Assembly: GCF_002879855.1 (NCBI RefSeq)
Contig: NZ_PNYB01000011.1
Coordinates: 62,001 to 126,000, forward strand
Source of the DNA: Trinickia soli
GTDB taxonomy: Bacteria; Pseudomonadota; Gammaproteobacteria; Burkholderiales; Burkholderiaceae
Reading direction: 5' to 3'
Length of the DNA stretch: 64,000 nt
Both the position numbers and the translations under genes were made by a program. The notes under the pieces were generated by a model. That model saw only the letters and a program-made list of their open reading frames with translations. It made no database searches and was not told the DNA's origin. Numbering within the stretch: the stretch's first letter is position 1; each line of letters opens with the position of its first letter. This document shows positions 16,168 to 42,352 of this stretch, piece by piece.

Positions 16168-16185
16168 TCTTACTGTGTCAATAAA
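16168..16185. repeat. IS701 left inverted repeat
   Basis: An 18-bp terminal repeat pairing with 17612-17629 with one mismatch. It contains the transposase stop codon (16170-16172). Confidence 0.92.
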
Positions 16186-18238: not shown

Positions 18239-18862
18239 ATGTCCGACCCAATCCTTGACCGATCCACGATCATCCCGTCAGTGAGCGAATCACTGCGCCG
18301 GTTCATCGGCGCTTATGTTCCGCTCCTCACCGAAGCGACAATCTCGCTGGATTCTCCCGCAGATTGGGACGGCACTAAGCAAAACAGCGCGACGCTTTAT
18401 CTCTACCAGATCGAAATCGATCCATATTTGCGCAACACGCCCGCAAGCATCCTATGGCGGGAGACTTCGACCGAACAGGTTCTTCCCCCCGTAATGAGGC
18501 TTGCACCGCTCGCGCTCGATTTGACCTACATGGTGGTGGCATACGGTACTTCCGGCGAGAACGAACAGATCATCGCCAACGGGCTCGCGAATCTGCTCGA
18601 CACCTGCGGCCGGATACCCGATGAGTATCTAATGGCGACGCTCCAGCAAAGCGGCAACGCGTCGCTCGCTGTGATCCCCGAGGCGTCGTCTATTCATGAA
18701 CTTCGCGATCTGTGGGCCGCGTTTTCTCCGAAAACGTATCACCTGACTCGGCTGTATAAGGTCCCGGCAGTGCGCATTCCTTCGCCGCGAGAACTCCCTG
18801 TCGACATCCTGAAGGAAATGCAGGTGAGCGCGGCGCCGATGAACCAGGGGAGCGCGCAATGA
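18239..18862 (+). CDS. eCIS sheath-terminator / cap protein (Pvc16, DUF4255)
   Basis: A 207-residue protein of the DUF4255 (Pvc16_N) family, which caps the sheath-tube at the distal end of extracellular contractile injection systems. Typical segments are SVSESLRRFIGAYVP, NSATLYLYQIEIDPYLRN, and LALDLTYMVVAYG. The family usually closes the operon in Photorhabdus PVC but is first here. The ATG at 18239 has a poor Shine-Dalgarno, so efficient expression may depend on leader context. It overlaps by ATGA with a candidate 47-aa frame and lies 142 bp upstream of the sheath gene. Confidence 0.88.
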   Translation: MSDPILDRSTIIPSVSESLRRFIGAYVPLLTEATISLDSPADWDGTKQNSATLYLYQIEIDPYLRNTPASILWRETSTEQVLPPVMRLAPLALDLTYMVVAYGTSGENEQIIANGLANLLDTCGRIPDEYLMATLQQSGNASLAVIPEASSIHELRDLWAAFSPKTYHLTRLYKVPAVRIPSPRELPVDILKEMQVSAAPMNQGSAQ

Positions 18863-19004: not shown

Positions 19005-20702
19005 ATGTCCGACGTTAGCAATCTTTTGCATCCGGGCGTATACATCAAAGAGCTGCCGGGGCTGCCGTCGATGACGGGCGCATCCACGTCGATTCCCGTG
19101 TTTATCGGCGCTACCGAAAGACTTGCCGACGGCGACCGCAACGTTGCTCGGCCGGTAAGGGGATGGGCCGATTATCAAGCGCGGTATGGCTCGTTCGTGT
19201 TTGGTGCGCAGGTTGGCGCTGCGGTGTTCGAGTTCTTCGCCCTAGGCGGGGCGTTCTGCTACGTCATCGGCGTTGCCGATGATCCGCCACCGACGGTGGC
19301 AAATTTCGATCTATCCGACCCGTTTGCGAAACTGCACATCGCCGCGGCAAGCATGGGCGATTGGCCCAATGACCTTGTGCAGGTGGTGACGTTGGACGCG
19401 GGGCCCGCTCCGGCCGCAGGGAAGGCTGCAAACACCTTTACGCTCAACGTTGTTGTCGATGAGACGGACCTGGCGGCATCCTCATCGGTATGGGCGAAAC
19501 TTTTAAAAGTTTACATTACGACGAACGCAATTAAGCCGACCCCTATTGGTCCTGCCAGCCAGGACAACTTCTACATTCTCGAATCTTATGGTGCGTTCAA
19601 CGCTGCGAGCCTGAATCCGCCTGCTGGGGCTTCGACATGCCCCCTCCAAGATCAGGTCAATGCGAAGTCGATGTTTATCCGTGTGCAAACGGTTGATACA
19701 TCCGAGGTGAACTCGGGCGGCGACCGCTCGTCGACGCTTGTCAAGTTCGCTAATGGCGATACGGTCACCTACAACGCAGCATTCTACGGCCCCGCATTGA
19801 AGGCGGTGTCAGCCGTCCCGGATGCAACCTTAATCGCAATCCCCGACGCCGCGATCATAGACATGTCGGACCTGGACCCTGCGACCGCTGCCACCGCTGC
19901 GAAGCCACTGAAGGACGTCATTAGTTCTGTATTCACCGCCTTCAAGCATCTGCCCAACATGTTCTACGTGATCGACTCGCCGTACGTCGATATTCCCTCG
20001 GACACGCAAAATATCGTGGATTTCGTCACGGGCGGGACGGACAACCTACCAGTGATCAACGACCACGCAGCCATCTACTACCCGTATATCGTTGTCCTGA
20101 ATCCCATTTCGGGTTACAGCGTCCCGGTCCCCCCGAGCGGCGCTGTGCTTGGTCTATACGCCAACACGGACATGAATGCGGGAGTCTGGGTCTCTCCTGC
20201 GGGCGTCGTCAACGGACGCGTAACGACAGCGACGGCGTTGACGGGATGGCTATCCGAGAGCGACCAAGATACGTGTAATCCGCACGGCATCAACGTAATC
20301 CGCCCGATCTCAGGCTACGGCATCACGATCTATGGCGCCCGCACGCTCAATCCCGGCACGCAAACTAAGTACGTCTCCGTCCGTCGATTCCTGACGTATG
20401 TCGAGCAAACCATCAAGGCGGGCCTCCAATGGGTGGTGTTCCAGAACATCACCGAAATTTTATATACCACCGTGGTCCGCGAAACGACCGCCTTTTTGAC
20501 TTCTTTGTGGAACATGGGCGCACTCTATGGCGCTACCGTGGATCAAGCATTTTTCGTCACCTGCGACGACACCAACAACCCGCCGGACCAACGGGCGAAG
20601 GGCATCCTTAATATCGCAGTCGGCTTAGCAGTATTGTCTCCCGCCGAGTTCGTGGTGGTCACTATTTCGCAGATCACTGGCTCGCCGAGCTCTGGTTCCT
20701 AA
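19005..20702 (+). CDS. eCIS contractile sheath protein
   Basis: A 565-residue tail-sheath protein (Pvc2-4 / phage sheath family), which forms the contracting outer cylinder. The N-terminal LLHPGVYIKELPGLPSMTGA and GATERLADG are the classical sheath opening. The C-terminal VSVRRFLTYVEQTIKAGLQW, then ETTAFLTSLWNMGALYG and CDDTNNPPDQRAKG, is the interlocking sheath domain. It is the only sheath gene here, whereas Afp and PVC have three. AAGGAG lies nine bases before the ATG. The central part is a variable surface domain without recognisable similarity. Confidence 0.93.
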   Translation: MSDVSNLLHPGVYIKELPGLPSMTGASTSIPVFIGATERLADGDRNVARPVRGWADYQARYGSFVFGAQVGAAVFEFFALGGAFCYVIGVADDPPPTVANFDLSDPFAKLHIAAASMGDWPNDLVQVVTLDAGPAPAAGKAANTFTLNVVVDETDLAASSSVWAKLLKVYITTNAIKPTPIGPASQDNFYILESYGAFNAASLNPPAGASTCPLQDQVNAKSMFIRVQTVDTSEVNSGGDRSSTLVKFANGDTVTYNAAFYGPALKAVSAVPDATLIAIPDAAIIDMSDLDPATAATAAKPLKDVISSVFTAFKHLPNMFYVIDSPYVDIPSDTQNIVDFVTGGTDNLPVINDHAAIYYPYIVVLNPISGYSVPVPPSGAVLGLYANTDMNAGVWVSPAGVVNGRVTTATALTGWLSESDQDTCNPHGINVIRPISGYGITIYGARTLNPGTQTKYVSVRRFLTYVEQTIKAGLQWVVFQNITEILYTTVVRETTAFLTSLWNMGALYGATVDQAFFVTCDDTNNPPDQRAKGILNIAVGLAVLSPAEFVVVTISQITGSPSSGS

Positions 20703-20714
20703 TGGAGGTGTTGC

Positions 20715-21167
20715 ATGGCTACTTTAGTTCAAGATCCCTTTCGCGGATTCCGCTTCCATGTAGACATCGTCCCGAAGATATCGGCTTCCTTCTCGGAGGT
20801 GACGATACCGGACATCACGATCGATACCGTCGACTACCGAGAAGGAACGGATAAGTCGCCGGGCCGCCGGCGGCTCTCGGGCATGGCCACGTATGGAAAC
20901 GTTTCGTTGAAACGCGGTATTACGGCCTCCTTAGACCTATATGAATGGCACCAAATGATCATAGCCACCGGGACCTCGGGGCAGAACGCGCGGCGCCATG
21001 GAACGATCATCTTGTACGACACCGACATCAGCAAGATCGCCGCGAAGTGGTCGTTCTTTGGCGCGTTTCCGACGACTTATCAATCGAGCGGCCTAAACGC
21101 GAGCAGCGCCGAAGTGATGATCGAGACGCTCGATCTGGTGGTTGAACGGATGTCGCGAGATCAGTGA
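20715..21167 (+). CDS. eCIS inner tube protein 1 (Pvc1/gp19-like)
   Basis: A 150-residue tube subunit; hexameric rings of it stack to form the needle. DPFRGFRFHVDIVPKISASF, the SFSEVTIPDITIDTVDYREG stretch and the GNVSLKRGITAS strand are standard for T4 gp19-like tube proteins of contractile systems. Length equals Afp1/Pvc1. It starts 12 bp after the sheath stop with GGAGG upstream. It is paired with a longer second tube protein at 21811, which probably forms the baseplate-proximal ring or a tube initiator. Confidence 0.92.
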   Translation: MATLVQDPFRGFRFHVDIVPKISASFSEVTIPDITIDTVDYREGTDKSPGRRRLSGMATYGNVSLKRGITASLDLYEWHQMIIATGTSGQNARRHGTIILYDTDISKIAAKWSFFGAFPTTYQSSGLNASSAEVMIETLDLVVERMSRDQ

Positions 21168-21205
21168 CTGTTTCATCGATAACCCAAACTATCTGAGAGG
21201 CCGCG

Positions 21206-21601
21206 ATGGGAGATCCGATTAGCACCGAATTCAAATTCACACTGCCCATAGGATACGCAGGGGCCGACGGCACATTGCATAAAGAAGGCATCATGCGTCT
21301 GGCAACCGCAGCCGACGAGATCGTAACCATGCGGGACGCTCGCGTACAAGCAAATCCCGCTTACCACCCAGTCGTCGTGCTCGCGCGTGTCGTTACGCAA
21401 CTGGGGTCGCTCGACATCGTCAGCCCCGATGTCATCGGCAATCTATTTGTGGCGGATTTCGATTTTCTGATTCGCCTGTACGAAGAAAAGAACGGGGGCG
21501 ATGACGAATCGAATGAACAGGCAGCCCGCGGCCGGCTGCAGGAGGCCGCCCAGGGAAACGTCGACTCGCTGCCCCTTCGGGCCAACTTTATGAGGAGATA
21601 G
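21206..21601 (+). CDS. eCIS tail-assembly chaperone-like protein (gpG-like), 0-frame product
   Basis: A 131-residue soluble acidic protein located directly after the tube gene, where phages encode tail-assembly chaperone G. It starts at 21206 with GAGAGG upstream. SFKFTLP-like FKFTLPIGYAGADGTLHKEG, MRLATAADEI and VVVLARVVTQLGSLDIVSPD are typical of this eCIS component. The last 15 codons overlap a -1 frame that encodes a DUF6760-like domain. An AGGAGG at 21540-21545 and GGGAAAC at 21553-21559, placed correctly as G GGA AAC, form a likely programmed frameshift. Two products, 131 and 187 aa, are therefore expected, as for lambda G and GT. Confidence 0.85.
   Translation: MGDPISTEFKFTLPIGYAGADGTLHKEGIMRLATAADEIVTMRDARVQANPAYHPVVVLARVVTQLGSLDIVSPDVIGNLFVADFDFLIRLYEEKNGGDDESNEQAARGRLQEAAQGNVDSLPLRANFMRR
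21553..21559 (+). promoter_or_regulatory. Programmed -1 ribosomal frameshift site GGGAAAC
   Basis: The heptamer GGGAAAC lies in the X XXY YYZ register of the chaperone frame (codons GGA AAC). Upstream, AGGAGG (21540-21545) is an internal Shine-Dalgarno-like stimulator seven bases away. Downstream, GCCC(CTTC)GGGC at 21571-21582 can form a small hairpin. Lambda G/GT uses the closely similar GGGAAAG. After slipping, the next codon is CGT at 21559-21561. Confidence 0.8.
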
Positions 21602-21768
21602 CGTTCATCGCTTATCACCTTCATTGGTCGCGCGAGGACATCTGTTCGATGGCGCATGCGGAGCGGCGGCGATGGTGTGAGGAGATCAGCAGGATCAACG
21701 AGAAGATCAATGCGGAGGCGGAGCAGTCGGACCGGCCGCGTGGGATCGATATTCGCGAGATGTGGTGA
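21559..21768 (+). CDS. DUF6760-like C-terminal domain made by -1 frameshift from the chaperone gene
   Basis: 69 codons in the -1 frame relative to the preceding gene. It contains GQLYEEIAFIAYHLHWSRED and HAERRRWCEEISRINEKIN, the pattern of small DUF6760 proteins (LYEEVAYIAYHFHW, HPERRRW) found in eCIS operons. The frame is open from 21517 but has no ATG, GTG or TTG before the ATG near 21648, which lies inside the domain. Normal initiation is therefore unlikely and the frameshift from 21553-21559 is the natural explanation. The fused product would be 118 + 69 = 187 residues. By analogy with lambda GT it should help load tube subunits on the tape measure. Confidence 0.75.
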   Translation, partial: RRLAAPSGQLYEEIAFIAYHLHWSREDICSMAHAERRRWCEEISRINEKINAEAEQSDRPRGIDIREMW

Positions 21769-21810
21769 ATGCGCGATCGACAATCGGCATATGTCTTTAA
21801 CGGGTGATGC

Positions 21811-22461
21811 ATGAGCTTTTCTCTCGGCGGCATAGCGAAAACTGCCCTCAACCAGGCGCAGGAGCCGGTTAAAACCTACAACTTTCGCGTCATTCTGCAT
21901 CCTGATTTAGGTGGGTCGGGCGGCATTCTGGGTGCGATGAAAAAAATCGCAGGTGGGATTGGGGCGAGTTTCGCGCTTGGCAGCTTTAGCTCGGTGGAGG
22001 GCGTCGGTTGGAAGACGGAAGTTCACACGGTGCGAGAGGGCGGCGTGAACGAGTGCGAGCATAGGCTGCCTGGCCGAACGACCTGCAATGAGCTCGTGTT
22101 TTCGAAAGGGCTGACGCTGCTCGATCCGATGTGGGACTGGTATCACTCGACCATTTCCGGCAGTGTGAGTCGGATGAACGGCACGATCTTTCTGATGACG
22201 GATTACCATACGCCGACGGGTGGCATCAGCGCGGTCCCCTCCACGGGGATACCCACGGCCGCGTGGCATTTCTTTCACGCGTTTCCGACGGCGCTCGAGG
22301 GAGCGCGAATGGACGCTTCCCAAAGCGCGATCGCCATTCAACATTTGACGGTGTCGATTGATCGCATTGAGAAGGTCGGTTTGCCGGTTGGTGGGTTAGG
22401 GGCGCTCGCTGCGGATGCGGTGGCCGGCACTGCGCTCAGTATAGCGGGGAGCCTTTTGTGA
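21811..22461 (+). CDS. eCIS inner tube protein 2 (Pvc5-like)
   Basis: A 216-residue gp19-like tube protein, longer than tube 1. KTYNFRVILHPDL, SFSSVEGVGWKTEVHTVREG and FSKGLTLLDPMWDWYHSTIS are the family landmarks (compare YVWKTEVEEYREGG/KRG in Pvc5). It probably forms the ring that joins the tube to the hub. It ends in a Gly/Ala-rich hydrophobic tail (LGALAADAVAGTALSIAGSL), unusual for a tube subunit. Its stop overlaps the next start (TGATG), so the two are translationally coupled. Confidence 0.88.
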   Translation: MSFSLGGIAKTALNQAQEPVKTYNFRVILHPDLGGSGGILGAMKKIAGGIGASFALGSFSSVEGVGWKTEVHTVREGGVNECEHRLPGRTTCNELVFSKGLTLLDPMWDWYHSTISGSVSRMNGTIFLMTDYHTPTGGISAVPSTGIPTAAWHFFHAFPTALEGARMDASQSAIAIQHLTVSIDRIEKVGLPVGGLGALAADAVAGTALSIAGSLL

Positions 22462-23942
22462 TGATGCGGACCTTCGGTCGCCTATCAATGACGCGGGCGC
22501 AAACGGCGCGTGCGTTTTGGCGTCGATCCGCTGCGCGGTTTCGCGTGCGTCTATACGGGCTGTCGGGCTACCCGTGGCCGACGCAGCGATCGCCAAAGTT
22601 CGTATTCGCCGTTTCGCTCGCGAGTTGGTTGACGAATAGAACAGCCAAGAAGAGAGCACTATCCGCAGAACGTCGGAGCCGGCAGCCTCGGCGTGAACCA
22701 ATGTCGCGGCAGTCAGCTGCGTTGCACGTCGCCGGTGGCTCGACGCGTAACACTGTGCGGGGACAGGCTTCGTCCACAGCGAAAACACTGCGCGAGTCTG
22801 CTCGTGTCGCACCGCGAAAGCCTGCGCAACCGATTGCTGCAAAACGCATCGCGGTTCCTACGACATCCCGCCGAATAACCGTATACGGACGCGTTATTCG
22901 GCCCGATCGTTCAATCGCATTTCGGCGCGCCGCCATGGTGGCGCGCGAGGTGGTCAAGACGCGATGGCTCGGCGGCGAGCGCATCTGGAGAGAGGTTCAG
23001 ACGCGTTTCGTAGAGCGGGGCGCGCGATCAATGTCCGCCGCTATCGCGGCGCGGCGTTCGGCCGGGACAAACGATGCACGCGCGTGGCGAACCCCGCGAC
23101 GCGCTGCCCACATTGCGATGCGGTCGGCACGTCGCCGGCGCGAGGCTGCAGTTCATCGCCGTGTTGACGCGTCGCGCCGCCGCGTGGCGATGATTGTCCG
23201 CAGTGCATATCGCGCGCATACGTTGACGAACCGGCGATCGGCCAAGTCGTTCGTTTCGTCGTCGCGGAGCGCGCATCGCGATTGCGGCCGCCAGGGAGCC
23301 AACAGCCGAACGAGTCAAGTGAGAGAGCTTCCGATTCGCGACCGCATTTTCATACTGCGGCGTTTCCAGATACATCGGATGGCCTCGGCGGCTCGAATTG
23401 TGCGCGCGACGCAGGCGCCTCGCGCGGATCTCGCACGGCCGCAATATCGATGGAGGCGGACGGACGTGGGCGCTCTCCGCTTCTTCTCGCGTCGTAGCGA
23501 TAGGCAGCCCGCGACTGCTGCGGCACGCCGGTATGTTCATCGAGCGGCGTCCTCGCCGCGGCGGTTCCTAGCGGAATCCCTATCGTCGCCGCGAGATTAT
23601 GCGGTCGCGACGTTAGCCCGGTACGAATCCGCTGCGAGACCGGCGATGATCATGCGGCAACGTACCGATCCGCAACGCTCACGCGAGCAAGCGACGGTAG
23701 GCGTACGGAACGCGCAGCCGACGCAGGATTCCCGCACGCGGCTCGCATCACATGAGAGCGACGGGTCGCGCGATCGATCGCCGCGCCCGCCGGCGGCCGA
23801 AGAAATACGCCGGATATTGATCCCCCTCTTGCAGGAAACGCTGTTTTCCGAGCGCACGATGGGGCGACTGGCGAATGGCGTCGTGTCCGAGGTAGACCGG
23901 CGCGATAGCGTGGAACAATACCGCAAAACGGGGGGGCGCTAA
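22461..23942 (+). CDS. Very arginine-rich eCIS protein at the tape-measure position
   Basis: A 493-residue protein with about 105 arginines by hand count (roughly 21%), few acids, and Ala/Ser/Thr filling. Most of it looks disordered or extended. The last 50 residues are more ordered (AEEIRRILIPLLQETLFSER, TMGRLANGVVSEVDRR). The frame is genuine: it begins by overlapping the tube-2 stop (TGATG) and ends overlapping the next ATG (TAATG), filling the interval exactly. In phage and eCIS maps this slot, after chaperone and tube and before the LysM hub protein, holds the tape measure. No other tape-measure candidate exists here. It may be a divergent tape measure or a lumen cargo/nucleic-acid-binding protein. 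Confidence 0.72.
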   Translation: MMRTFGRLSMTRAQTARAFWRRSAARFRVRLYGLSGYPWPTQRSPKFVFAVSLASWLTNRTAKKRALSAERRSRQPRREPMSRQSAALHVAGGSTRNTVRGQASSTAKTLRESARVAPRKPAQPIAAKRIAVPTTSRRITVYGRVIRPDRSIAFRRAAMVAREVVKTRWLGGERIWREVQTRFVERGARSMSAAIAARRSAGTNDARAWRTPRRAAHIAMRSARRRREAAVHRRVDASRRRVAMIVRSAYRAHTLTNRRSAKSFVSSSRSAHRDCGRQGANSRTSQVRELPIRDRIFILRRFQIHRMASAARIVRATQAPRADLARPQYRWRRTDVGALRFFSRRSDRQPATAAARRYVHRAASSPRRFLAESLSSPRDYAVATLARYESAARPAMIMRQRTDPQRSREQATVGVRNAQPTQDSRTRLASHESDGSRDRSPRPPAAEEIRRILIPLLQETLFSERTMGRLANGVVSEVDRRDSVEQYRKTGGR

Positions 23943-24670
23943 TGCTAGAACGAAACAGTGCGAGCGACGCAGGTTTCCATCTCTTTCCCGCCGCGCTGCA
24001 GCGCGCGACCATTCATATCGAGAACTCGAACACGAGCACGATGAAGGTCAAGCATAAGCACATTGAGGTGATGTACAACCCCGAGGAGTTGTCGCTGAGT
24101 CAACGTGCGTCGGTGGACGGCGAGGGTAACAACGTATGGTTCTCGCGAACCCAGCCGGAAGATTTGGTGGTCACGCTATTTTTCGATACGTATGAAAAGG
24201 GCTCTGACGTACGCAAGAAAACCAATGACATTCTTGCGTTGACGGAGCCTTGGCCTGCAAAGAAAGGGGCAAAGGTGCCGCCGACAGTGCGATTCATGTG
24301 GGCCGACCATCTGTTTACGGGGATCGTGACTCATGTCGCACAGAGGTTCACGATGTTTCTGCCCACGGGGGCGCCGGTCAGAGCGGAGCTGACCGTCACG
24401 TTCAAGGAAGTCTTGAACGACAAGCAAGAGATCGCGGCGAAAGGGCTAGACAACTGTCGCGCCCTGTACACCGTCATCGGTAGCGACCGGCTTGGGTCGA
24501 TCGCATACAACACGGTCGGAGATTTGTCTCAATGGCGTCTTATCGCCGAGGCGAACGGCATCTACGATCCGATTGGTTTTCCCGGACATGCATGGACGGG
24601 GCGGACGATCGCGATACCTGATACGGACAACGTGACGTTCGAGCCAAAAGGAGCGTCGGACTATGTCTGA
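23942..24670 (+). CDS. eCIS baseplate hub protein with LysM domain (Pvc7-like)
   Basis: A 242-residue hub/tube-initiation protein. HKHIEVMYNPEELSLSQRAS near residues 40-60 and VTLFFDTYEKGSDVRKKTND are conserved in Pvc7/Afp7-type proteins. A LysM-like peptidoglycan-binding module fills residues about 180-235 (DRLGSIAYNTVGDLSQWRLI, IYDPIGFPGHAW). The LysM may help the baseplate dock on the cell wall during assembly. It overlaps the upstream stop by TAATG and the downstream gene by eight bases, typical of a tightly coupled baseplate operon. Confidence 0.9.
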   Translation: MLERNSASDAGFHLFPAALQRATIHIENSNTSTMKVKHKHIEVMYNPEELSLSQRASVDGEGNNVWFSRTQPEDLVVTLFFDTYEKGSDVRKKTNDILALTEPWPAKKGAKVPPTVRFMWADHLFTGIVTHVAQRFTMFLPTGAPVRAELTVTFKEVLNDKQEIAAKGLDNCRALYTVIGSDRLGSIAYNTVGDLSQWRLIAEANGIYDPIGFPGHAWTGRTIAIPDTDNVTFEPKGASDYV

Positions 24671-25826
24671 CTTCGGCGGAGGCGAGAAACCGACTGCACA
24701 CAACGCCGCGGAAGGCGGGGCGGCGCCGAAGTCAGGCGATGGCGGCAAGCAAACGTATGGCGTGGCGCGCAACGCAAACGAATTCCGCGATATCACAAGC
24801 AACGGCGAAAAAATCACGGCTGTCGCCAGCTCCACGTTCGTTTCGACCGTCGTCATTCAAGAGATCAACGCGCCGGCGATGTGCCAAATCGTTTTCGAAT
24901 TGGACACGAATTGGACTGACGACGACTACAAGCAGTTTGCGGCTGGCTCCAGGCTGGAGATTCCTGACAAGCTGGTCCAGGACAAACAGCTTCCACCGAT
25001 GTATGTGAGCGGCCTCACACTCGATGGGACCACGGGGTCGAGCATGCAATCGACGCTGACCGTCACCGCTTTCGACAAGATGCACTTTCTTCGGTTTGGC
25101 GAATACAGCAAGAGTTTTGTGAATCAGAGCGACCAGGACATTTTCGAGTGGATAGTGGAGTCGGTTGGCATGAATTTTTCCACGATCGGATATATGTCGA
25201 AGTTGGCGTATCCATTCTTCCTTTCGGATAACGAAACGCGTTACGATCTTTTATTAAAAGTATGTCGGCAGGAGTACTACGAATGCATAGTGAAGATGAA
25301 AGGCGAACACGAGACGCTAGTTGTGAACAGTCGGGAGTACAGAAACAGCGCGCTCGATCCACCGTTGTTTTACAACTACGACATCGAAGCGATCAACCTC
25401 GATATGCGTGTGCCGACACTGGGCGAGACGGTAACGATACGGGGATACGATTTTTTAAACGGCAAGCCTCTAAGCACAACGGACAGTGACAATACCGAGC
25501 TTAGCGAAATGAAAGGGGCGCAAAAGGCGTTCGAGGCATCCGAGCCGTTCGGGGATTCGCCGGTTACGCTGAAGCGACCGGATATCGGCAGTGAGAATTC
25601 GCTCGTCAACATCGCCGTGGGTCAGCGCGAGCGGTTCCAAGATACTTTTATCGAAGGGACAGTGACGCTGAGACAGATCAATCTCGAAGCATGCCCCGGT
25701 GTCAATGTCGATCTACGCGGGATAAACAGTCGTTTTGACGGCCTGTATCACGTCGTAAAGAGCACGCATCGGATTGATCGTAATCGGAACTTCACCATCC
25801 TGAACGTAACAAGGAGCGGAATGTGA
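24663..25826 (+). CDS. eCIS central hub protein, gpD/VgrG-N type (Pvc8 part)
   Basis: A 387-residue protein equivalent to phage late-control protein D and the gp27-like half of VgrG. It forms the trimeric ring on which the spike sits. VVIQEINAPAMCQIVFELDT, DQDIFEWIVESVGMNFS, VCRQEYYECIVKMKGEHETL and the terminal FDGLYHVVKSTHRIDRNRNF are the family landmarks. The N-terminal 35 residues are Gly/Ala/Lys-rich and probably flexible. It has AAAAGGAG before the ATG at 24663. In many eCIS the hub and spike are fused; here they are separate genes. Confidence 0.88.
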   Translation: MSDFGGGEKPTAHNAAEGGAAPKSGDGGKQTYGVARNANEFRDITSNGEKITAVASSTFVSTVVIQEINAPAMCQIVFELDTNWTDDDYKQFAAGSRLEIPDKLVQDKQLPPMYVSGLTLDGTTGSSMQSTLTVTAFDKMHFLRFGEYSKSFVNQSDQDIFEWIVESVGMNFSTIGYMSKLAYPFFLSDNETRYDLLLKVCRQEYYECIVKMKGEHETLVVNSREYRNSALDPPLFYNYDIEAINLDMRVPTLGETVTIRGYDFLNGKPLSTTDSDNTELSEMKGAQKAFEASEPFGDSPVTLKRPDIGSENSLVNIAVGQRERFQDTFIEGTVTLRQINLEACPGVNVDLRGINSRFDGLYHVVKSTHRIDRNRNFTILNVTRSGM

Positions 25827-26626
25827 GTGCGCGTTTGAAGCTCGAATTGGGCGTGGTGATCAACGCAACGGATCCGGATGAGCTTGGCCGCGTTCAGGTT
25901 CAGTATGAAGACGGGGTGGTATCGAATTGGCTTCAGGTCGCGAGCCCGTTTGCGGGACCCGGATACGGGATGTTCTCGCTGGAGACGACATTGGGGGAGC
26001 AGGGTCCTTTGCCCGCCGAGCCGAAGCCTCCGCCGGACCCCAATGCCGATGGTAAGAACCCTTCCACTACCGGGTCGTCTACTACATCAACGTCTTCCAC
26101 TACGTCAACGTCCTCCGCTACGTCAACGTCTTCCACTTCGGCGACACCGCCAGCCGAGCCGGCGGCGAGTGCGCCTACGCTCGCGTTGGTCGCGTTCCCC
26201 ATGGACGATCGTACCTACGGATACGTTATCGGTTTCCTTTTCCGTTGGGACAAAAATGCTTCACCCTATATCGTCGATGATGAAAAAAAGCGGCAAAGCG
26301 TATGGCTCGTAAAAACGAAGAACGGAAAGACGATCACACTCGACGATTCGGACGACACACCCTCGATCACGATTGCGGACGAAAACCAAAACATCATTAC
26401 GTTCGACACGAAAAAAAACGAGATTTCGATCGTCAGCCAGGGCAACTTAACGGTCACGGCAACCGAAACGCTAACGCTCAAAGGGAAAAACGTGGAGGTG
26501 CAGGCCCAGGAAAAGGTCAAGCTCGACGCGAGCGAGATCGACCTCACCGCTGAGATGGAGGAGCCTCCGCCACCGCCGGCAACTCAACCACCGAAAACAC
26601 CGCAACCACCGAAGGCGCGCCAATGA
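25823..26626 (+). CDS. eCIS spike protein, gp5/VgrG-C type
   Basis: A 267-residue spike. An OB-fold opens the protein (LELGVVINATDPDELGRVQV, VSNWLQVASPFAGPGYGMF). A Ser/Thr linker of about 35 residues built on 18-bp DNA repeats follows, then a domain with WLVKTKNGKTITLDDSDDTP, and a beta-helix needle (QNIITFDTKKNEISIVSQGN, LTLKGKNVEVQAQEK). It ends in a proline tail (EEPPPPPATQPPKTPQPPK). It starts with GTG at 25823, overlapping the hub stop, with AAGGAG six bases upstream. The low-complexity insert between OB-fold and needle is unusual. Confidence 0.88.
   Translation: MSARLKLELGVVINATDPDELGRVQVQYEDGVVSNWLQVASPFAGPGYGMFSLETTLGEQGPLPAEPKPPPDPNADGKNPSTTGSSTTSTSSTTSTSSATSTSSTSATPPAEPAASAPTLALVAFPMDDRTYGYVIGFLFRWDKNASPYIVDDEKKRQSVWLVKTKNGKTITLDDSDDTPSITIADENQNIITFDTKKNEISIVSQGNLTVTATETLTLKGKNVEVQAQEKVKLDASEIDLTAEMEEPPPPPATQPPKTPQPPKARQ
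26075..26146 (+). repeat. 18-bp tandem repeats encoding a Ser/Thr linker in the spike
   Basis: Four head-to-tail 18-bp units start at 26075, 26093, 26111 and 26129 (the last partial). The second reads TCTTCCACTACGTCAACG. Each encodes about six Ser/Thr residues. Copy number could vary by replication slippage without breaking the frame. Confidence 0.8.
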
Positions 26627-27018
26627 ATCCGTTCATCGCCAAATCGGGCGACCTCATCCAAGGGACCGATGTTCACACTGTGGTGAACAGTACTACTAGC
26701 GAGACTCAACCTCAGTCGTTTCCGTTCTCCGGGGCTTTCATTCCGGCAACCCTCGAGGCTAAAGTGAAGGTCAATGACATGGCGGTGGCCACGGTCAACT
26801 CGCAGGCTGAAAACCAGCCTCCGCATGAGCCTCCGCCGTCGGACACGTTCTCCGATCCGCCGACGAACTTGGGTCAACTTTCGTCATGCAGGATCAAGGT
26901 AAAAGTGAACGGCAAAAACGTCGCACGAGATGGAGATTCATGCACGACCTGCACCGAGGGAGATCAGAACGCGCAGGTACGGGTGCAGCAGAAGGTGAAG
27001 GTTTGTATCGGAAGCTAG
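26623..27018 (+). CDS. PAAR-like spike-tip protein (DUF4150)
   Basis: A 131-residue protein of the PAAR-like DUF4150 family that sharpens the spike or carries cargo on its tip. VKVNDMAVATVNSQAENQPP in the middle and VNGKNVARDGDSCTTCTEGD near the end match the family, including the paired Cys segment that probably binds a metal. PAAR/DUF4150 proteins often bear C-terminal toxin domains; this one stops just after the fold and so is a bare tip. It overlaps the spike stop (CAATGAA). Confidence 0.85.
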   Translation: MNPFIAKSGDLIQGTDVHTVVNSTTSETQPQSFPFSGAFIPATLEAKVKVNDMAVATVNSQAENQPPHEPPPSDTFSDPPTNLGQLSSCRIKVKVNGKNVARDGDSCTTCTEGDQNAQVRVQQKVKVCIGS

Positions 27019-27033: not shown

Positions 27034-27426
27034 ATGCTCGTCAATGAAGATTTCCTAGGCAGGGGCTGGTCATTCCCGGTCGCGATTTCGACATCGGGCC
27101 AGGTGCAATGGAGCGCCGGCGAACAAAAGATACGCGAATCGATCTTGATCATCCTTCGCACGGTGCCTGGGGAACGTGTGCTGATGCCGACCTTCGGTTG
27201 CCGCATTAATGAGCTCGTGTTCGCTTCCAACAACGGCACGACGCGAGCGTTGGCCCAAACCTACGTGACCGAGGCGCTTCGCACGTGGGAGCCGCGTATC
27301 GAGGTGTCCGATGTCACGGTGAGCATGGACCCTACGATGCCGAACGCGCTGCCGATCCGTATCGACTACGTCGTAAGAGAGACGAACAACGCGGGCAACC
27401 TCGTTTATCCGTTCTTACTCAAATGA
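27034..27426 (+). CDS. eCIS baseplate wedge protein, gp25-like (Pvc9)
   Basis: A 130-residue gp25/lysozyme-like wedge protein that nucleates sheath polymerisation. GRGWSFPVAISTSGQVQWSA, the EQKIRESILIILRTVPGERV motif and LMPTFGCRINELVFASNN are the standard gp25 signature (including the conserved EPR-like turn). Start at 27034 with GGAGG upstream. Only seven bases separate its stop from the large baseplate gene. Confidence 0.93.
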   Translation: MLVNEDFLGRGWSFPVAISTSGQVQWSAGEQKIRESILIILRTVPGERVLMPTFGCRINELVFASNNGTTRALAQTYVTEALRTWEPRIEVSDVTVSMDPTMPNALPIRIDYVVRETNNAGNLVYPFLLK

Positions 27427-27433
27427 GCCGCGC

Positions 27434-30400
27434 ATGAGCGTTCCGATCTTCGACCCCCGCACGGCTGCGACGTTCTTCACCGATGCGCTCGCGCTCGCGC
27501 GGCTGTATTGCCCGCAATGGGCGTTGCCTGACGATGACGACTTAACACCCGCCGCCATCGCGCAAGATCCGGGTTTGGTCTTGCTCGAATTGTTCTCGCT
27601 GTTGGGACAGGACTTAGCTAGCGTGCTGAACGCCATTCCGGCGCAGCGTCAGCTCGCCTTGTACCGATTTTTGGATATGACGCTGCGGCCCGCGGCGTGC
27701 GCATCCGCGCCGATTCAATTTTCGCTCGCGCCGAAGCGCGCGGCCGTCGTGCTGCCGAAAGGCACGACCGTCAGCGCGCCCTCCGCGCAGGGCGTGCGTT
27801 TCGAAACCAATGTGGATGTGCAGGTGTTGCCCGCGACGCTTAGCGCGGTACTCACGGTAGTGCCGAGGTTGGATCGCTATTGGGACCTTCAATCGTTGTG
27901 GCAAGCCGGCAATTCGGCGCCGGCCTTTCCTGCCAGTGACGCTGACGAGAGCGATGTCGAACGCTCCTTCGCACATTGTTTGATGATCGGCGACCCGACG
28001 CTCTTTGATCCGGCGCGCGGAGCGAGTCGAATGACGCTGATATTCAGCGGAGAGAGCCTCGCGAAAGAATTTTTCCAACGCTGGTATGACGGCGCGTTGA
28101 ACCCGCTGCTCGTCTCGGTGGAGAGTTCGCTCGATCAGCGTACGTGCAGAATCGAATTCGCCGTCATGCCCTCCGCGCCTGCGGAATCGGTCACGGCATT
28201 GCATGCTTCGATCTCTGCGCTCGCGGGTCGTCCGTTGAATATGACGGACCCGTACATCAAGGCAGGCGCAACAACGCCCCTTAATTGGGTCGTCTGCGCG
28301 CCTCGTCCCGATTGGCGCATCGTGCCCGCTTTGAACGGCGGCCTGCCGAGAATCGATTCGATCTGGTGCGATTTCGGCACGTTGTCGACAGCGCCTCAGC
28401 AAGCGGCTGCCGGTGCGTATCTTATCGATCTCAATAACGGCGCATATGCGTTCGGAAAGGTTCCGGCGCAAGAAGGCTGCTTCAATATTCGATGCGATGC
28501 TGCATTTTCGGCACAGGGTGCGCCGGTCAGCATGGAAATCGACATTCGTCCCATTACCAAGAAATACCCGGTACAAATCGAATGGGAATATTGGAACGAA
28601 ACGCTCTGGTACCCGTTCGCAGCTGATGGCGATCCGTACCGGTTTCTCGACGGAACGAACGGCTTGACCGAGAGCGGTACGGTTTCGTTCCTCTGCCCGC
28701 CCGTTACACCCTCAACGGTGGCGGGAACCTTAGGCTTTTGGATTCGCGCAAGGATCGCAGAAGGCAATTATGGCGACGCTGCGGACGGATTCGATCCGCC
28801 GTTCGTGTACTCGCTGACTATCACGTACAGAAGCGGCGGCGTGCCGGCTTCGGTGTGGACCCATAACGCTTTCGAGCTCGAACTGGCTTATTCGAAAAGC
28901 GATTTTTTCCCCGCGCCTAGCGTCGAGCCGTATAAGCCGCTGGCGGAGGAAGGCCCTTCGGTTTACGTGGCCTTCGACGCGGCGAGTTTGCTTCCCTATG
29001 GCCTTGGTCAACGGTTGACGCTGTACGTTGATATCGACCCGCGCGACGAGCATATCGGCTATAGCGACGCCGGCCAGTGGCAATGGTTCGATGCGACGAC
29101 CACCGCATGGCTGCCGCTGAGCATCGATGTGGGCGAAGCCGGTTTGGCGCGAAGTGGGACCCTCAGCTTTGAAGTACCCGCGACTATGCAAGGCGCCGTA
29201 CTCTTCTCGCAAACGGCTTGTTGGTTTCGCGTGCTCTGCCCGCGCGAGGACAACGCGCTTCGCTTGCGCGGCATCTACCCGAATACGATCAGCGGTTTCA
29301 ATCGCGAGACTTATCTGAACGAAGTGCTCGGTTCGAGCAACGGGCAACCGGGCCAACGGTTCGTATTGGGTCAGGTCGCAACGACGCCAACGGGAACGGA
29401 TCAAGTGCTGCTTGCCATAAGCGAGGACCCGCAATACACGGTGGCGATCTCGGTGGTCGAGCCAACGAGCGCTGTGTCTCCTGCGATCGGCGCGAATCAA
29501 ACACAGCAGCAAACGATCAGGTATCCGTGGACGCGCGTAGATAGTTTCGTCGGGCGAGGCCCGAACGAACGCGTCTTCACGGTTGACGTGCTCGCCGGAG
29601 CGATTCTCTTCGGCGACGGGAAAAGCGGAAAGATTCCGCCGCCGGGGCCCCGCAACGTCGTCGCGACACGCTACGCGGTAACGCGTGGGTCAGGCGGGAA
29701 CGTAGACGCCGGCACGCTCACCAACTTGTACAGTTCGACGCCGGGCATCACGCAAGTGACGAATCCGGTCGCGGCGCGCGGCGGCGCAGATGCTGAGATG
29801 GTCCCCGATTTGACGATTAGCGGCCCAGGACGCGTGCGAGCGAACGACCGTGTCGTGAGCGCCGCGGATGCAGAGGCCCTCGGCCCTTTTGCGAACGCCG
29901 GGGTGCGTCGCGTGCGTGCGATCGAGCGCATATGGGGGGGCGGGATGACCCTGCATGGCGTCTTTACATCGTCAGCGCCGCTGATGTCGCCGGACGATAT
30001 CGGCTTGCCGCAGCTCGACCTTGTTGTGCTGGCGGCATCGAATGAGCCGGAGCCGCTCACACCGATGTCGATGCTCGACGACGTGTTGGCGTACGTACGC
30101 GATCGCAGTACGCCCGCGTTGGCCGCTCGAACAAGTGCCCGCCGCCCGGCATTCAAGCGCATTAACGTTGCGGTGTTGCTGGAAACCAATGAACCGAAAG
30201 CGCAATGGCCTGCGCTGCAGGCCACCATTACCGCGCAATTGACGCAGTTCCTCCATCCGTCTCAAGGGGGGGGCGATTCGCTCGGCTGGCCGATCGGCGA
30301 GCCGATGAGGTATATGGCGGTGCGTTTGTTTTTGCAGGGCTGCCAATCATCGGTGACCTCGGTATTGGCGTTGGCGTTATGCGGACAGACGGACGACGTC

Positions 30401-30472
30401 ACGCTCCAGCCCTATGAAGCGCCTTCGGCTGGGACGATCGACCTGCGCTTTTCAGAGGCACAGCCGTCATGA
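27434..30472 (+). CDS. eCIS baseplate J-like protein (Pvc11)
   Basis: A 1012-residue wedge component. The opening DPRTAATFFTDALALARLYC and AIAQDPGLVLLELFSLLGQD are characteristic of Pvc11-type proteins. The J-like core in the last 350 residues has FGDGKSGKIPPPGPRNVVAT, YAVTRGSGGNVDAGTL and DAEALGPFANAGVRRVRAIE. It should dimerise with the gpI- and second J-like proteins to form the six baseplate wedges. It overlaps the next gene by ATGA. Confidence 0.9.
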   Translation: MSVPIFDPRTAATFFTDALALARLYCPQWALPDDDDLTPAAIAQDPGLVLLELFSLLGQDLASVLNAIPAQRQLALYRFLDMTLRPAACASAPIQFSLAPKRAAVVLPKGTTVSAPSAQGVRFETNVDVQVLPATLSAVLTVVPRLDRYWDLQSLWQAGNSAPAFPASDADESDVERSFAHCLMIGDPTLFDPARGASRMTLIFSGESLAKEFFQRWYDGALNPLLVSVESSLDQRTCRIEFAVMPSAPAESVTALHASISALAGRPLNMTDPYIKAGATTPLNWVVCAPRPDWRIVPALNGGLPRIDSIWCDFGTLSTAPQQAAAGAYLIDLNNGAYAFGKVPAQEGCFNIRCDAAFSAQGAPVSMEIDIRPITKKYPVQIEWEYWNETLWYPFAADGDPYRFLDGTNGLTESGTVSFLCPPVTPSTVAGTLGFWIRARIAEGNYGDAADGFDPPFVYSLTITYRSGGVPASVWTHNAFELELAYSKSDFFPAPSVEPYKPLAEEGPSVYVAFDAASLLPYGLGQRLTLYVDIDPRDEHIGYSDAGQWQWFDATTTAWLPLSIDVGEAGLARSGTLSFEVPATMQGAVLFSQTACWFRVLCPREDNALRLRGIYPNTISGFNRETYLNEVLGSSNGQPGQRFVLGQVATTPTGTDQVLLAISEDPQYTVAISVVEPTSAVSPAIGANQTQQQTIRYPWTRVDSFVGRGPNERVFTVDVLAGAILFGDGKSGKIPPPGPRNVVATRYAVTRGSGGNVDAGTLTNLYSSTPGITQVTNPVAARGGADAEMVPDLTISGPGRVRANDRVVSAADAEALGPFANAGVRRVRAIERIWGGGMTLHGVFTSSAPLMSPDDIGLPQLDLVVLAASNEPEPLTPMSMLDDVLAYVRDRSTPALAARTSARRPAFKRINVAVLLETNEPKAQWPALQATITAQLTQFLHPSQGGGDSLGWPIGEPMRYMAVRLFLQGCQSSVTSVLALALCGQTDDVTLQPYEAPSAGTIDLRFSEAQPS

Positions 30473-37263: not shown

Positions 37264-37489
37264 TGTTACGTTGCCGCTGATTAGAGTGTGTCGGTCGGGC
37301 GGGTTACCCCGCCGACTATCTGGTTGGCCTCGCCACGCCTGAGCGGAGAATTGGGCCTGCCGGTCTGGCGGCGCAACTACGGCGCACAGACAGCAGTTGA
37401 CGCAGTCTTACCAGGCAGTAGCACTGGTTCTGCTCTTGCTTGTGACGGACAACGAATTTCGCCCACCACTCCTTCCCTCAAGGCGCCCC

Positions 37490-39634
37490 ATGACCACCAC
37501 AGGCGCGTCACTCGCCGAGTCGGCCGCCCCTTACGCCGACAACCCTGCCTTCCTCGACGACCTACGCCGCTTCGTCGAATCGCTGCTGTCAGCAGCCGAT
37601 CGTGCCGCGACGGATTCCCTCCATACAGCGTCCCACCAAGCCTCCCACACCTGGCGCGCCATCGCCGCCCGCATGGCGGCAACCGTCAAAGCGGAAATCT
37701 TCATCCCTCTGGCCCACGTCGCGCTCGTATTTCAGCTCGATGCGCGCGACGTGCAGTTGCTGTCGCTCGCATTGATGATCGAAGCCGATCGCTCGATAAG
37801 CGACGCATTCTCGACGCTGACGCGCACGTTGCACGAAGCCGAAGGCATTGACGATCGCCCACGCTCGACATCGGCGACGGGCAAGGCTACGTCGCTCAGA
37901 ACCGCGACCTATCTCCTAGGCGACGTGCGAGGCTGCCTATTTGCCGATAGCCCGCTATGCGTGCATCAACTGATCGAGCTCGACGACGTCAACGTCTCGA
38001 CGCTCGACGGCGCCTATCGTTTAGCGCCGGCGCTCACGGCGTACTTGCTTGGCCTTGCTGCCCCCCAGCCACGTATCGGCGATCAAATGGCCGTCGACGT
38101 GATCGTCGAGGAATCCCTCGCGGAATTGATCGTGGGCGAGAACATCAAGCGTCAACTCCAACGATTCGTCGAAGTGTGCTGCGCGCCGAGCGCGCGCTTC
38201 GGCGCCGTCGTGCTTCAAATCGAGGCCGATGATACGACGCTCGCCGGCGCGCTTGCCGCTGCGGCATTTTCGAATCTAGGCTACGGCGTGGCGCGCTTGA
38301 GCGCACGGCATATTCGATCGGCGTATCAAAACGCCGATCATCGTCTTTCGACACTGCAGCAACAATTGCGCACGGCATGCCGCGACGCTGCACTCTGCAC
38401 GCAAGTGCTCATGCTGACCGATACCGACGCGCTGATCGGCAACGAAGAGCGCGAACAAATCGATCTTTTCGATAGCGCGATTCAGGCGCTGCTTCAGGCC
38501 GTCACGTACGTGGTGATCCTCAACGGCGCCTCCAGGCGGCTAGCCGATACGGTGGCGGGCTCGCGCCAGCAAGGCGTGAGATTGTTTCAAGTGTGCGTGC
38601 CGCCGCCTACGCCGGATTTGCGCAAGCTGGCCTGGGAAAAGCATGCCGATTACTACGATCTGCCGCTTGACGATCGTCTATTGACCGCGGTGGCAGACGC
38701 CTACACGTTTACGGAAGCGCGTATCGCCGCGGTGATCGACACCTTGGCGGGGCGGCATGCCTTGGCCGGCGACGATAAGATCGAGCCGATGCTGTGGGAT
38801 ATTTGTCGTACCGAGGCGCAGGATCAGCCGATCGGCGTGGCCAGACGCGTCGATGCGCCGTATCGGCTAAGCGATCTCGTCGCGCCGCCGCAGACCGTCG
38901 CCTTGCTCGAAGAAGTGTTGGGTCAGATGCGGCATCGCGCACACGTTATCGACGAACTTGGTTTCGCGGCCAAACATCCCGCCGTCAAGAACCTATGCGT
39001 GCTGTTCCATGGATCGCCGGGAACAGGCAAGACGATGGCCTCGTCGATTCTTGCTAATGAGCTCTCGCTACCGTTGTATCGCGTCGACCTCTCGACGGTG
39101 CTCAGCAAATATATCGGCGAGACGGAGCGCAACATCGCGCAGTTGTTCGAGCGCGCACAGTTGATGAACGTCGTGCTGCACTTCGACGAAGCGGAAGGAC
39201 TCTTCAGCAAGCGAACGGATGCGAAGGATTCGCACGACCGCTTCGCGAACCTGCAAGTGGGCTTTCTATTGCAGCGAATCGAGTCCTATCAGGGCCTCGT
39301 GATCCTATCGACGAACTTGATGGGCAACATCGATAAGGCGTTCTTGCGGCGTTTTGGCTTCGTTATCGAGTTTCCGTCGCCGGCCAGGGATGAGCGGCTG
39401 CATTTGTGGCGGCAGATTTTTCCGGAGCGGGTGCGATTGCACGACGATGTCGATCTCGAGGTGCTGGCCGACAAGGCGGCCCTCTCGGGAGGGTACATCC
39501 GTAACGCTGCGCTCAGCGCAACTTTCCTGGCGGCGCGGGAGGGCTCGGCGGTCAAAATGACGCACCTAGTGAAATCGGTTGGACGCGAATATGAAAAGCT
39601 CGGGAAGTTGTTTTCCGAGGCGGACTACATATAG
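37490..39634 (+). CDS. eCIS AAA+ ATPase (Pvc15)
   Basis: A 714-residue ATPase associated with eCIS assembly. The C-terminal AAA+ module has Walker A FHGSPGTGKTMASS (near residue 508), Walker B VVLHFDEAEGLF (near 564), sensor-1 VILSTNLMG, and an arginine finger in LRRFGFVIEF. An inactive-looking AAA-like half precedes it (about residues 210-390). ATG at 37490; longer upstream reading begins at non-ATG codons and is ignored. In Afp/PVC this protein is needed for particle formation or cargo loading. It is the last recognisable structural gene of the cluster. Confidence 0.9.
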   Translation: MTTTGASLAESAAPYADNPAFLDDLRRFVESLLSAADRAATDSLHTASHQASHTWRAIAARMAATVKAEIFIPLAHVALVFQLDARDVQLLSLALMIEADRSISDAFSTLTRTLHEAEGIDDRPRSTSATGKATSLRTATYLLGDVRGCLFADSPLCVHQLIELDDVNVSTLDGAYRLAPALTAYLLGLAAPQPRIGDQMAVDVIVEESLAELIVGENIKRQLQRFVEVCCAPSARFGAVVLQIEADDTTLAGALAAAAFSNLGYGVARLSARHIRSAYQNADHRLSTLQQQLRTACRDAALCTQVLMLTDTDALIGNEEREQIDLFDSAIQALLQAVTYVVILNGASRRLADTVAGSRQQGVRLFQVCVPPPTPDLRKLAWEKHADYYDLPLDDRLLTAVADAYTFTEARIAAVIDTLAGRHALAGDDKIEPMLWDICRTEAQDQPIGVARRVDAPYRLSDLVAPPQTVALLEEVLGQMRHRAHVIDELGFAAKHPAVKNLCVLFHGSPGTGKTMASSILANELSLPLYRVDLSTVLSKYIGETERNIAQLFERAQLMNVVLHFDEAEGLFSKRTDAKDSHDRFANLQVGFLLQRIESYQGLVILSTNLMGNIDKAFLRRFGFVIEFPSPARDERLHLWRQIFPERVRLHDDVDLEVLADKAALSGGYIRNAALSATFLAAREGSAVKMTHLVKSVGREYEKLGKLFSEADYI

Positions 39635-41468: not shown

Positions 41469-42352
41469 ATGCCTATCAGCCAAAATGACATCGATGCCGA
41501 GATCAAGTTGCGCATGCCAGGTTACGCGATGTCGCCGCATCGCAAAGCGCTTTCGTCAATCGAACGCCGGGCGTTAAGCTGCCCGATCATTTGCAAAACC
41601 TGCTGACGACTGTGCTGGCACGAGCGGAATCGCAGCACGGCTTCTGCCTGGGGGGCGCGCAAAATAGCACGGGGGTACAACGGCCTGCAGCTTTGCTGCT
41701 GACAGGCGTTATCAACGAAAACAAGTTTCGCTCGCTGCTTCGGCAGCAAATGCCGTTCAAGGATCCGACGGTGCCGTACGGACACGGCGAATTCAGCCAT
41801 CGGATTCAGTGGTATTGCGTGATCAAGCGCGCTCAGGCGTTTGATACGCAGGGCATCGCTTGGGCCGATCTCTACGAGTGGGTCGGCACACAGGCGCATA
41901 CTCAAGCGCAAAACTGGGATGAAGAGGGCTGGGCCAACGAAGGTCTTTGGGACGCGCTATTCGATCGCAATAAGTACGGTCGAGACGGATTCAACGGGCC
42001 ATATAACACCGCCGCGCTGACGGACTTTAGGAGTCCTGAGAATCTGCACGAGCATCTGACGACGCATGCCAATATGAAAACGGACTGCCCGTTGCTGTCG
42101 ACTTTCCTGGCGGTGCGCGAAGCGAAGCGGACGAACACCGCCATTCGCGTGAGCACGGCTTATATCAACGATTATGCGACGAAGAAGGTGTTCGGGTCGG
42201 GTGTCACCTACGCGCAGTTGAGCGACAGCGATAAGACGCAAATCGATACGGTGGTGGCCGGAAAAACGCTGCTGCCGCAGCCCACGCAGCAGCAGACGCC
42301 CGATACGGTGATGCAGAAATTGTCGGCGCTTTTTGGCGGGTTGTGGTGGTGA
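41469..42352 (+). pseudogene. Unknown gene interrupted by a frameshift
   Basis: The start at 41469 has AGAGAGG upstream and reads MPISQNDIDAEIKLRMPGYA. That frame ends near 41606, while a well-behaved 250-residue frame continues to 42352 (LPDHLQNLLTTVLARAESQH, IQWYCVIKRAQAFDTQGIAW, WADLYEWVGTQAHTQAQNWD, NPNT-like RTNTAIRVSTAYINDYATKK). The second frame has only a TTG at 41591 as a start, so the two parts were probably one protein of about 295 aa. Loss of one base between 41487 and 41590 would explain it. No slippery heptamer is visible, so I favour a mutation or a sequencing error over programmed frameshifting. Function unknown. Confidence 0.6.

Follow-up and report, generated by a model that had tools for sequence, protein, structure and literature searches.

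The closest described relatives of the locus reported here are the tail assembly chaperones of phages. In lambda, whose heptamer is GGGAAAG, a -1 slip near the end of the tail chaperone gene yields gpG and gpGT, which is the kind of event that we propose here; we liken the two by device rather than by sequence, and lambda, unlike eCIS, is non-contractile. According to PMC5009743, the short lambda form binds the length-determining protein while the long form also binds tube subunits. The annotation of the P2 record gives the order sheath (FI), tube (FII), E and E+E' (by -1 frameshift) and then T. Phage Mu encodes its chaperone, gp41, between tube and tape measure together with a frameshift product that is annotated as -2 rather than -1. 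For the chaperones of T4-like phages, Vladimirov reportedly proposed in 2022 a mechanism other than frameshifting; we take these phages as a precedent for the ATGA-type loci described below, by the title of that study and not by sequence.

Described eCIS such as Afp, PVC, AlgoCIS and the cyanobacterial and Streptomyces CIS have genes for cap, sheath, tubes, baseplate and ATPase in common with the DNA analyzed here. PMC10066040 describes the Streptomyces CIS as being without a typical tape measure protein, and for a cyanobacterial CIS 13 of 17 gene products were reportedly found by mass spectrometry. Within the open literature, no title or start of an abstract linked eCIS with programmed frameshifting; subscription papers lie mostly outside this scope and a prior description is possible. 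Term searches of individual eCIS papers gave no chaperone pair made by frameshifting: “frameshift” was absent from PMC8213781, PMC8894135, PMC8894136 and PMC10066040 and appeared in PMC8528098 only as a mutation in another gene. In PMC13222765, searched in the same way, it stood only in the title of a reference on T4-like phages. PMC8718954, PMC11948020 and PMC5009743 deal with phages or recoding.

The window, a 64,000-nucleotide stretch of Trinickia soli DNA, contains an eCIS chaperone gene that is very probably decoded in two ways by a -1 slip, which would give a 131-aa chaperone and a 187-aa fusion of the chaperone with a DUF6760 domain. Our best reading is that this is a known device, the frameshifted chaperone of the P2 E/E' or G/GT type, here placed in an eCIS.

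The chaperone gene and its cluster

As listed in Table 1, the window cluster runs from cap, sheath and tube 1 through the 131-aa ORF to tube 2, a basic 494-aa ORF, CIS_tube, hub, spike, PAAR, gp25 and baseplate J, with an AAA ATPase further downstream. We assigned it to the eCIS on finding a Pvc16_N cap, sheath, gp19 tubes, CIS_tube, gp25, baseplate J and AAA ATPase in one cluster. The ATPase is probably Afp15-like, judging from its family and place. No capsid, portal or terminase gene was found among those window ORFs that were scanned with Pfam, a part of all ORFs. Upstream of the chaperone gene is tube 1, and downstream are tube 2 and then a variable-length ORF that is a ruler candidate only. 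Just upstream of the cluster, a DDE-type transposase is encoded on the minus strand (16170-17570); downstream of it are a DUF5636 protein (41591-42352) and an outer membrane transporter of the ShlB/FhaC type (46763-48517).

Table 1. Features of the window around the chaperone gene.
Feature	Position	Strand	Evidence or remark
eCIS cap (Pvc16_N)	18239..18862	+	PF14065 E 3.1e-23
Sheath	19005..20702	+	PF17482 and PF04984
Inner tube 1 (gp19-like)	20715..21167	+	PF06841 E 3.1e-35
Tail assembly chaperone-like ORF, zero frame, 131 aa	21206..21601	+	PHROG_508 E 1.8e-10
Internal AGGAGG, SD-like, candidate stimulator, 7 nt 5' of heptamer	21540..21545	+	
Slippery heptamer G GGA AAC	21553..21559	+	Zero-frame codons CAG GGA AAC, exact X XXY YYZ register
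-1 frame extension, 69 codons + TGA (21766-21768)	21559..21768	+	PF20546
4-bp hairpin, small, not supported as conserved stimulator	about 21571-21582	+	Folds in silico
DUF6760 domain within -1 frame	about 21583-21735	+	PF20546 E 1.4e-19
Zero-frame stop TAG, inside -1 coding sequence of LYEEIAF	21599..21601	+	
Inner tube 2 (gp19-like)	21811..22461	+	PF06841 E 6e-23
Basic ORF, candidate length ruler (guess)	22458..23942	+	Place of variable-length ORF in relatives; no family
CIS_tube family protein	23942..24670	+	PF19266 E 2.1e-24
Baseplate hub (GPD-like)	24663..25826	+	PF05954 E 3.3e-5, below its cut-off
Spike (Phage_base_V)	25823..26626	+	PF04717 E 1.6e-10
PAAR-like tip	26623..27018	+	PF05488 E 2e-5, just below its cut-off
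Baseplate wedge gp25	27034..27426	+	PF04965 E 2.4e-26
Baseplate J-like	27434..30472	+	PF04865 E 3.8e-7
AAA ATPase	37397..39634	+	PF00004 E 5.1e-29

An initial annotation, made from the letters of the DNA, had reported an internal AGGAGG in the chaperone-like gene, a GGGAAAC in the exact register for slippage and, in the -1 frame, a DUF6760-like domain preceded by no ATG, GTG or TTG. All of these were found as described. The domain scored 70.4 bits against PF20546, above the curated cut-off of 27, and was matched with E 2.8e-18 in a genome-level search. From 21517 onward the -1 frame is open, and CTG, too, is absent from it ahead of the domain; its first ATG, at 21649, lies inside the domain. 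The predicted shifted product comprises 118 + 69 = 187 aa and has the junction AQGN-RRLAAP, and both this and the expected sizes of 131 and 187 aa agree between the initial annotation and the ORF coordinates.

Other searches with the window were negative. The 131-aa ORF matched no Pfam family at E 0.1 and no NCBIfam family, Rfam gave no match over 20700-22500, a PDB sequence search with the chaperone and DUF6760 alignments returned chance-level matches only, and tblastn of the two window proteins against a phage collection gave no matches at E 0.01. When codons of the window alone were shuffled, any in-register heptamer turned up in the 27-codon overlap with a probability of about 0.055, and GGGAAA with one of about 0.03. 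Taken alone the window heptamer is therefore weak evidence, and its significance rests on the comparison across loci.

We propose that most ribosomes would read straight through the gene to make the 131-aa tail assembly chaperone, while a minority would slip back by one base at G GGA AAC, tRNA-Gly re-pairing from GGA to GGG and tRNA-Asn from AAC to AAA. The slip would probably be aided by the SD-like AGGAGG upstream, and the slipped ribosomes would enter the start-less DUF6760 frame and complete the 187-aa fusion. If lambda gpG/gpGT and P2 gpE/gpE+E' are taken as models, the chaperone part may coat a length-determining protein and the DUF6760 extension may recruit tube subunits during assembly. 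The anatomy of the overlap, the register, the recurring slip sites, the match of the chaperone to its family and the similarity between DUF6760 relatives and P2 E' are read directly from the sequences. From these we infer the frameshifting itself and its extent, the part played by the SD-like element and the function in assembly.

Slip sites and candidate stimulators across loci

A search with a DUF6760 alignment gave 80 genome loci (of 123 confirmed) and 19 viral loci, which together with the window and two more genomes made 102 loci. A chaperone relative lay upstream, with DUF6760 in its -1 frame, in 101 of the 102; the remaining locus, L049, is truncated and ends before the chaperone, leaving 79 genome loci for the analysis of heptamers. 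An ATGA overlap also produces a -1 frame relation, so that this relation alone is no proof of frameshifting, and it is the missing starts and the in-register heptamers that carry the argument. Sheath and tube upstream, chaperone, and tube downstream were all found in 75 of 83 loci when genome loci and our own were combined, and such loci occur in Pseudomonadota, Bacillota, Thermodesulfobacteriota, Methanobacteriota and others.

Within the last 75 nt of the chaperone gene, where the -1 frame is open, an in-register X XXY YYZ heptamer was present in 66 of 79 genome loci; the other two registers had one in 1 and 2 of the same loci. When the codons of the 79 loci were shuffled 1000 times, the mean was 10.1 loci with an in-register heptamer and the maximum was 19. 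By one common rule, heptamers occurred at 67/79 chaperone ends compared to 36 of the 497 remaining gene ends of these loci. Of the viral loci, 14 of 15 analyzed had an in-register heptamer (off register, 3 and 2; shuffle mean, 1.9); 4 of the 19 were dropped from this count and 3 from the count of 115 loci given below. The viral loci may be phages or eCIS, and a second tube gene lies downstream in only 1/19. In the viral loci L092, L093, L096 and L097, 89 nt lie between the end of the chaperone ORF and the domain match, so that there is no overlap as measured; a T6 heptamer stands 16 nt before the ORF end in L093, L096 and L097.

With plasmid loci included, 115 loci were analyzed (82 genome and own, 17 plasmid, 16 viral). 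A canonical heptamer was present in 85, only the motif GGGGGA[AG] in 25 and neither in 5. No ATG, GTG or TTG was near the zero-frame stop in 84 of the 115, and all 84 had either a canonical heptamer or GGGGGA[AG]. The five loci with neither motif, including L092, which was measured at the wrong ORF end, all have a start nearby. A canonical heptamer combined with the lack of a start near the stop was found in 60/82 genome and own loci. The comparison that the initial annotation had outlined, of -1 relation, slip site and missing starts across eCIS loci, thus favors frameshifting, and the reading of the window as a -1 frameshift in the style of lambda G/GT is strongly favored by it, although the nearest phage relative identified by sequence is P2 E'.

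The heptamers differ between groups: Burkholderiales and some others have GGGAAA[GCA], Paenibacillus has TTTTTTG, Clostridia have AAATTTT and TTTTTTC, and Thermodesulfobacteriota and Methanotrichaceae have CCCGGGG. Parsimony on one tree of 90 rows, with the last 30 chaperone residues left out, gave 17 changes among 8 motif labels, a rough figure because support was <80 on 45 of 85 inner branches. Many loci are closely related, and locus counts exceed event counts. In 14 loci of the Paenibacillus type (one titled Bacillus) a single codon was used at each of six consecutive positions, GAT TTT TTG TCC TTA ACG, compared to a mean of 2.75 codons for invariant residues upstream of the slip site; the last three of the frozen codons are also in the dual-coded stretch, which itself restrains codons. 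In 15 Clostridia loci, AAT and TTT within the AAATTTT site were likewise frozen as codons.

Closer to the window, the Trinickia members L128, L129, L132, L133 and L134 keep GGGAAAC, and the slip-site region of L132 is the same as in L009 (Trinickia sp.). Among 14 further loci of the window's family, the domain was located in 11 (not in L136, L138 and L140), several of which look like duplicates, and all 11 readable loci had an in-register motif (8 GGGAAA[ACG], 3 GGGGGAG). Four loci are outside all counts: L004 and L006, which are below the cut-off and inside ORFs of about 815 aa, and the sub-threshold L005 and L007. The weak DUF6760-like domain of L005 (reverse strand, around 1501-1617), from a genome of the window's order, is in frame with a longer protein. 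The DUF6760 matches L137 and L138, of the window's family, each contain one internal stop codon, and these copies may be decayed.

Past the overlap, pS exceeded pN in the -1 frame by 2.6- to 8.5-fold in four of six locus pairs, while pS was lower than pN in the two other frames in all six. For the window, the synonymous excess in the -1 frame was slight both against L008 (0.36 vs 0.26, ungapped, the L008 domain being one codon shorter) and against L009 (0.34 vs 0.27).

In 47 of 85 loci, a GAGG, AGGAG or GGAGG was present in the 20 nt that precede the heptamer, as compared to 9.0% of other sequence windows in the same ORFs. The commonest spacings were 7 and 10 nt, the former being that of the AGGAGG in the window. 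Some of this enrichment may come from a Glu-Val that is conserved behind the zinc ribbon; the choice of GAG as the Glu codon before G (49/58 near the slip site vs 69/128 elsewhere) argues for more than that, though the rows are related. With some heptamer types the element was scarce (TTTTTTC, 1/10; TTTTTTA, 0/4). We consider the upstream SD-like element a supported candidate stimulator. In many relatives a zinc-ribbon-like end with CPxC stands ahead of the slip site, as in the chaperones of L012, L036, L042, L055, L059 and L118; it is absent from the window chaperone.

The small hairpin that the initial annotation had placed after the heptamer does form in silico, but it is not supported as a stimulator: over 37 nt its z was -0.09, no better than shuffles, and it differs from the structure predicted for an alignment of the ten-locus subgroup (weak consensus, -5.0 kcal/mol). 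An 81-nt stretch of the window folded with z -1.90 (12/200 shuffles as good), and single folds of relatives gave z -1.25 (L008), -2.68 (L002), -1.36 (L022) and -0.94 (L012). The consensus structure of four L002-type loci was stronger (-15.3 kcal/mol). In this structure, as in that of the ten loci, both partners are changed in 2 pairs. For the ten loci of the window's subgroup no downstream structure is conspicuous, and we claim no such stimulator for the window.

Overlapping starts and alternative explanations

Of 19 plasmid records, 18 were taken in, the exception being H9, one strain's second record, and 17 were analyzed after L123 was dropped; their sheath or tail neighbors were seen only where the record was annotated. 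In 14/17, GGGGGA[AG] stood in register just 5' of the zero-frame stop, and these loci span Actinomycetota, Cyanobacteriota, Pseudomonadota, Bacillota and Spirochaetota. Loci with this plasmid-type motif at the chaperone stop are L107, L109, L111, L112, L114-L122 and L124. An overlapping ATG or GTG accompanies the motif in six of the 14. In the remaining eight, no ordinary start is close to the stop, and annotation starts three of these at ATT, ATA or CTG. Across the data the motif was in register in 13 genome, 14 plasmid and 1 viral loci, off register in none, and at 1/497 other gene ends. GGG was the Gly codon in 37/40 C-terminal Gly-Glu pairs compared to 207/1119 Gly codons elsewhere. Because GGGGGA[AG] was drawn up as a motif once the data had been seen, the 25 loci that depend on it carry less weight than the canonical heptamers. 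The motif may be a slip site (with perfect re-pairing in the P site and G-U in the A site), a Shine-Dalgarno for a coupled start, or both.

It could be argued that DUF6760 is instead a separate small protein made by termination-reinitiation at ATGA or GTGA, or at a weak ATA, ATT or CTG, with the G-rich stretch serving as Shine-Dalgarno. Starts close to the chaperone stop, often ATGA or GTGA, do occur in 14/82 genome and own, 7/17 plasmid and 10/16 viral loci, and in about 10 more genome loci a -1 frame start 10-100 nt upstream of the zero-frame stop makes initiation there possible. The annotated DUF6760 begins with ATG or GTG in L113, L118, L119 and L121 and with ATT, ATA or CTG in L109, L112 and L122, and the Streptomyces sequence GGGGGAATCGTGA also speaks for a separate protein. 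These loci show that DUF6760 can be made on its own and that translational coupling may replace or accompany frameshifting in several Streptomycetaceae and in scattered other loci. The window, however, has no usable start, as the near-stop candidates ATA 21598 and ATC 21607 are within the domain; the 60 genome and own loci with a canonical heptamer and no near start also stand against separate translation, which leaves the in-register heptamers unexplained. We regard this explanation as unlikely, for the window itself as well. The suggestion of the initial annotation that DUF6760 genes are generally frameshift products is accordingly right in part only, as it does not fit several Streptomycetaceae and the scattered others with ATGA or GTGA. 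Homologues with their own start, which are part of what it had named as evidence against frameshifting, make up a minority and are absent among the window and its close relatives.

Another possibility is that frameshifting is real but regulatory, acting through pausing or coupling to the downstream tube 2 and not for the sake of a functional fusion. The extension is indeed short and directly before the second tube gene; this is nevertheless improbable, as DUF6760 is conserved as a protein (all 51 members scanned match PF20546) and has relatives that are similar to the P2 E' extension. The fusion could also arise if transcription, rather than the ribosome, slipped on a homopolymeric run, and TTTTTTG, TTTTTTC and related runs are present in many loci. 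On the other hand, GGGAAAC, GGGAAAG, AAATTTT and CCCGGGG are not homopolymeric yet obey the two-tRNA -1 rule in register, and off-register motifs are rare, which makes this explanation very improbable. A chance heptamer, an assembly error or a broken gene, for which the window-alone probability given above could be cited, is on sequence grounds already refuted by the comparison, with the -1 relation kept in loci from many assemblies and GGGAAAC in the window's genus.

Relation to P2 E' and the variable-length ORF

Ribosomal frameshifting to a functional fusion, the reading that we prefer, is consistent with the family matches of both parts. The tail assembly chaperone family PHROG_508 matched 51/51 chaperones scanned (the window and 50 of 77 listed loci), and Gp41_Mu (PF23746) weakly matched 8/51 (best E 0.002). 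PF06528 (Phage_P2_GpE) matched 15/51 DUF6760 members at E up to 1, with a best value of 1.3e-4; the window's own DUF6760 gave no match to it even at E 10. The window domain probably works like GpE' and is related to it, and we do not file it as a member of PF06528. With the DUF6760 profile, the P2 E' extension ranked first of 1 + 5000 shuffles, and hhalign gave E 1e-5 and 3.1e-5 in single comparisons. When P2 gpE was compared with the chaperone profile, shuffled sequences topped the list and the hhalign probability was near 0; P2 gpE is thus undetected by this profile, and homology of the chaperone parts is not shown.

P2 gpE/gpE+E' (PF10109, PF06528) and the window have in common the order sheath, tube, and chaperone with a -1 extension. 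The extensions are alike in sequence around FHW, and the P2 heptamer, TTTTTTG, is that of the Paenibacillus loci. Unlike P2, the window has a second tube gene after the chaperone and the gene is in an injection-system cluster, not a phage. The nearest phage relative identified by sequence is P2 E' rather than lambda, whose device is of the same kind. The sub-threshold locus L007 (1489-1716, minus strand) scored 22.4 bits for DUF6760 and 16.6 bits for P2 GpE, both under the cut-off, and is a possible bridge between the families.

These data give DUF6760 a probable identity as a P2 E'-like extension of a tail chaperone. A start-less frame would explain why annotation misses the DUF6760 gene in some records or assigns it ATA, ATT or CTG starts. 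If frameshifting is correct, many eCIS would depend on two chaperones at a fixed ratio, with consequences for the way in which their length is set, and a recoding device would be present in cellular injection machines, beyond phages. In eCIS recoded for expression, a synonymous change could silently remove one protein. The loci also offer natural cases in which ATGA coupling and frameshifting seem to stand in for one another.

In the loci L008-L087 an ORF lies between tube 2 and CIS_tube that measured 163 to 1572 aa, stop to stop, in 57/60; the other three were <100 aa, where the delimiting rule probably failed. Family searches with it gave nothing reliable. An R-R-G-like C-terminal motif was seen in 39/60. 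Our guess is that this ORF is the length ruler and a candidate partner of the short chaperone. It could be speculated, tentatively, that a whole branch of eCIS in bacteria and archaea, including the Streptomyces and cyanobacterial types, assembles like a phage tail with a G/GT-type pair, the second chaperone arising by a canonical -1 slip, by a slip at G GGG GA(A/G) or from a coupled ATGA start at that site, and that the variable ORF is the hidden ruler of systems believed to have no typical tape measure. Tandem CIS_tube-type matches (two) were observed in L053, L059, L067, L068, L075, L077, L078, L080-L085 and L087, while the window has a single copy.
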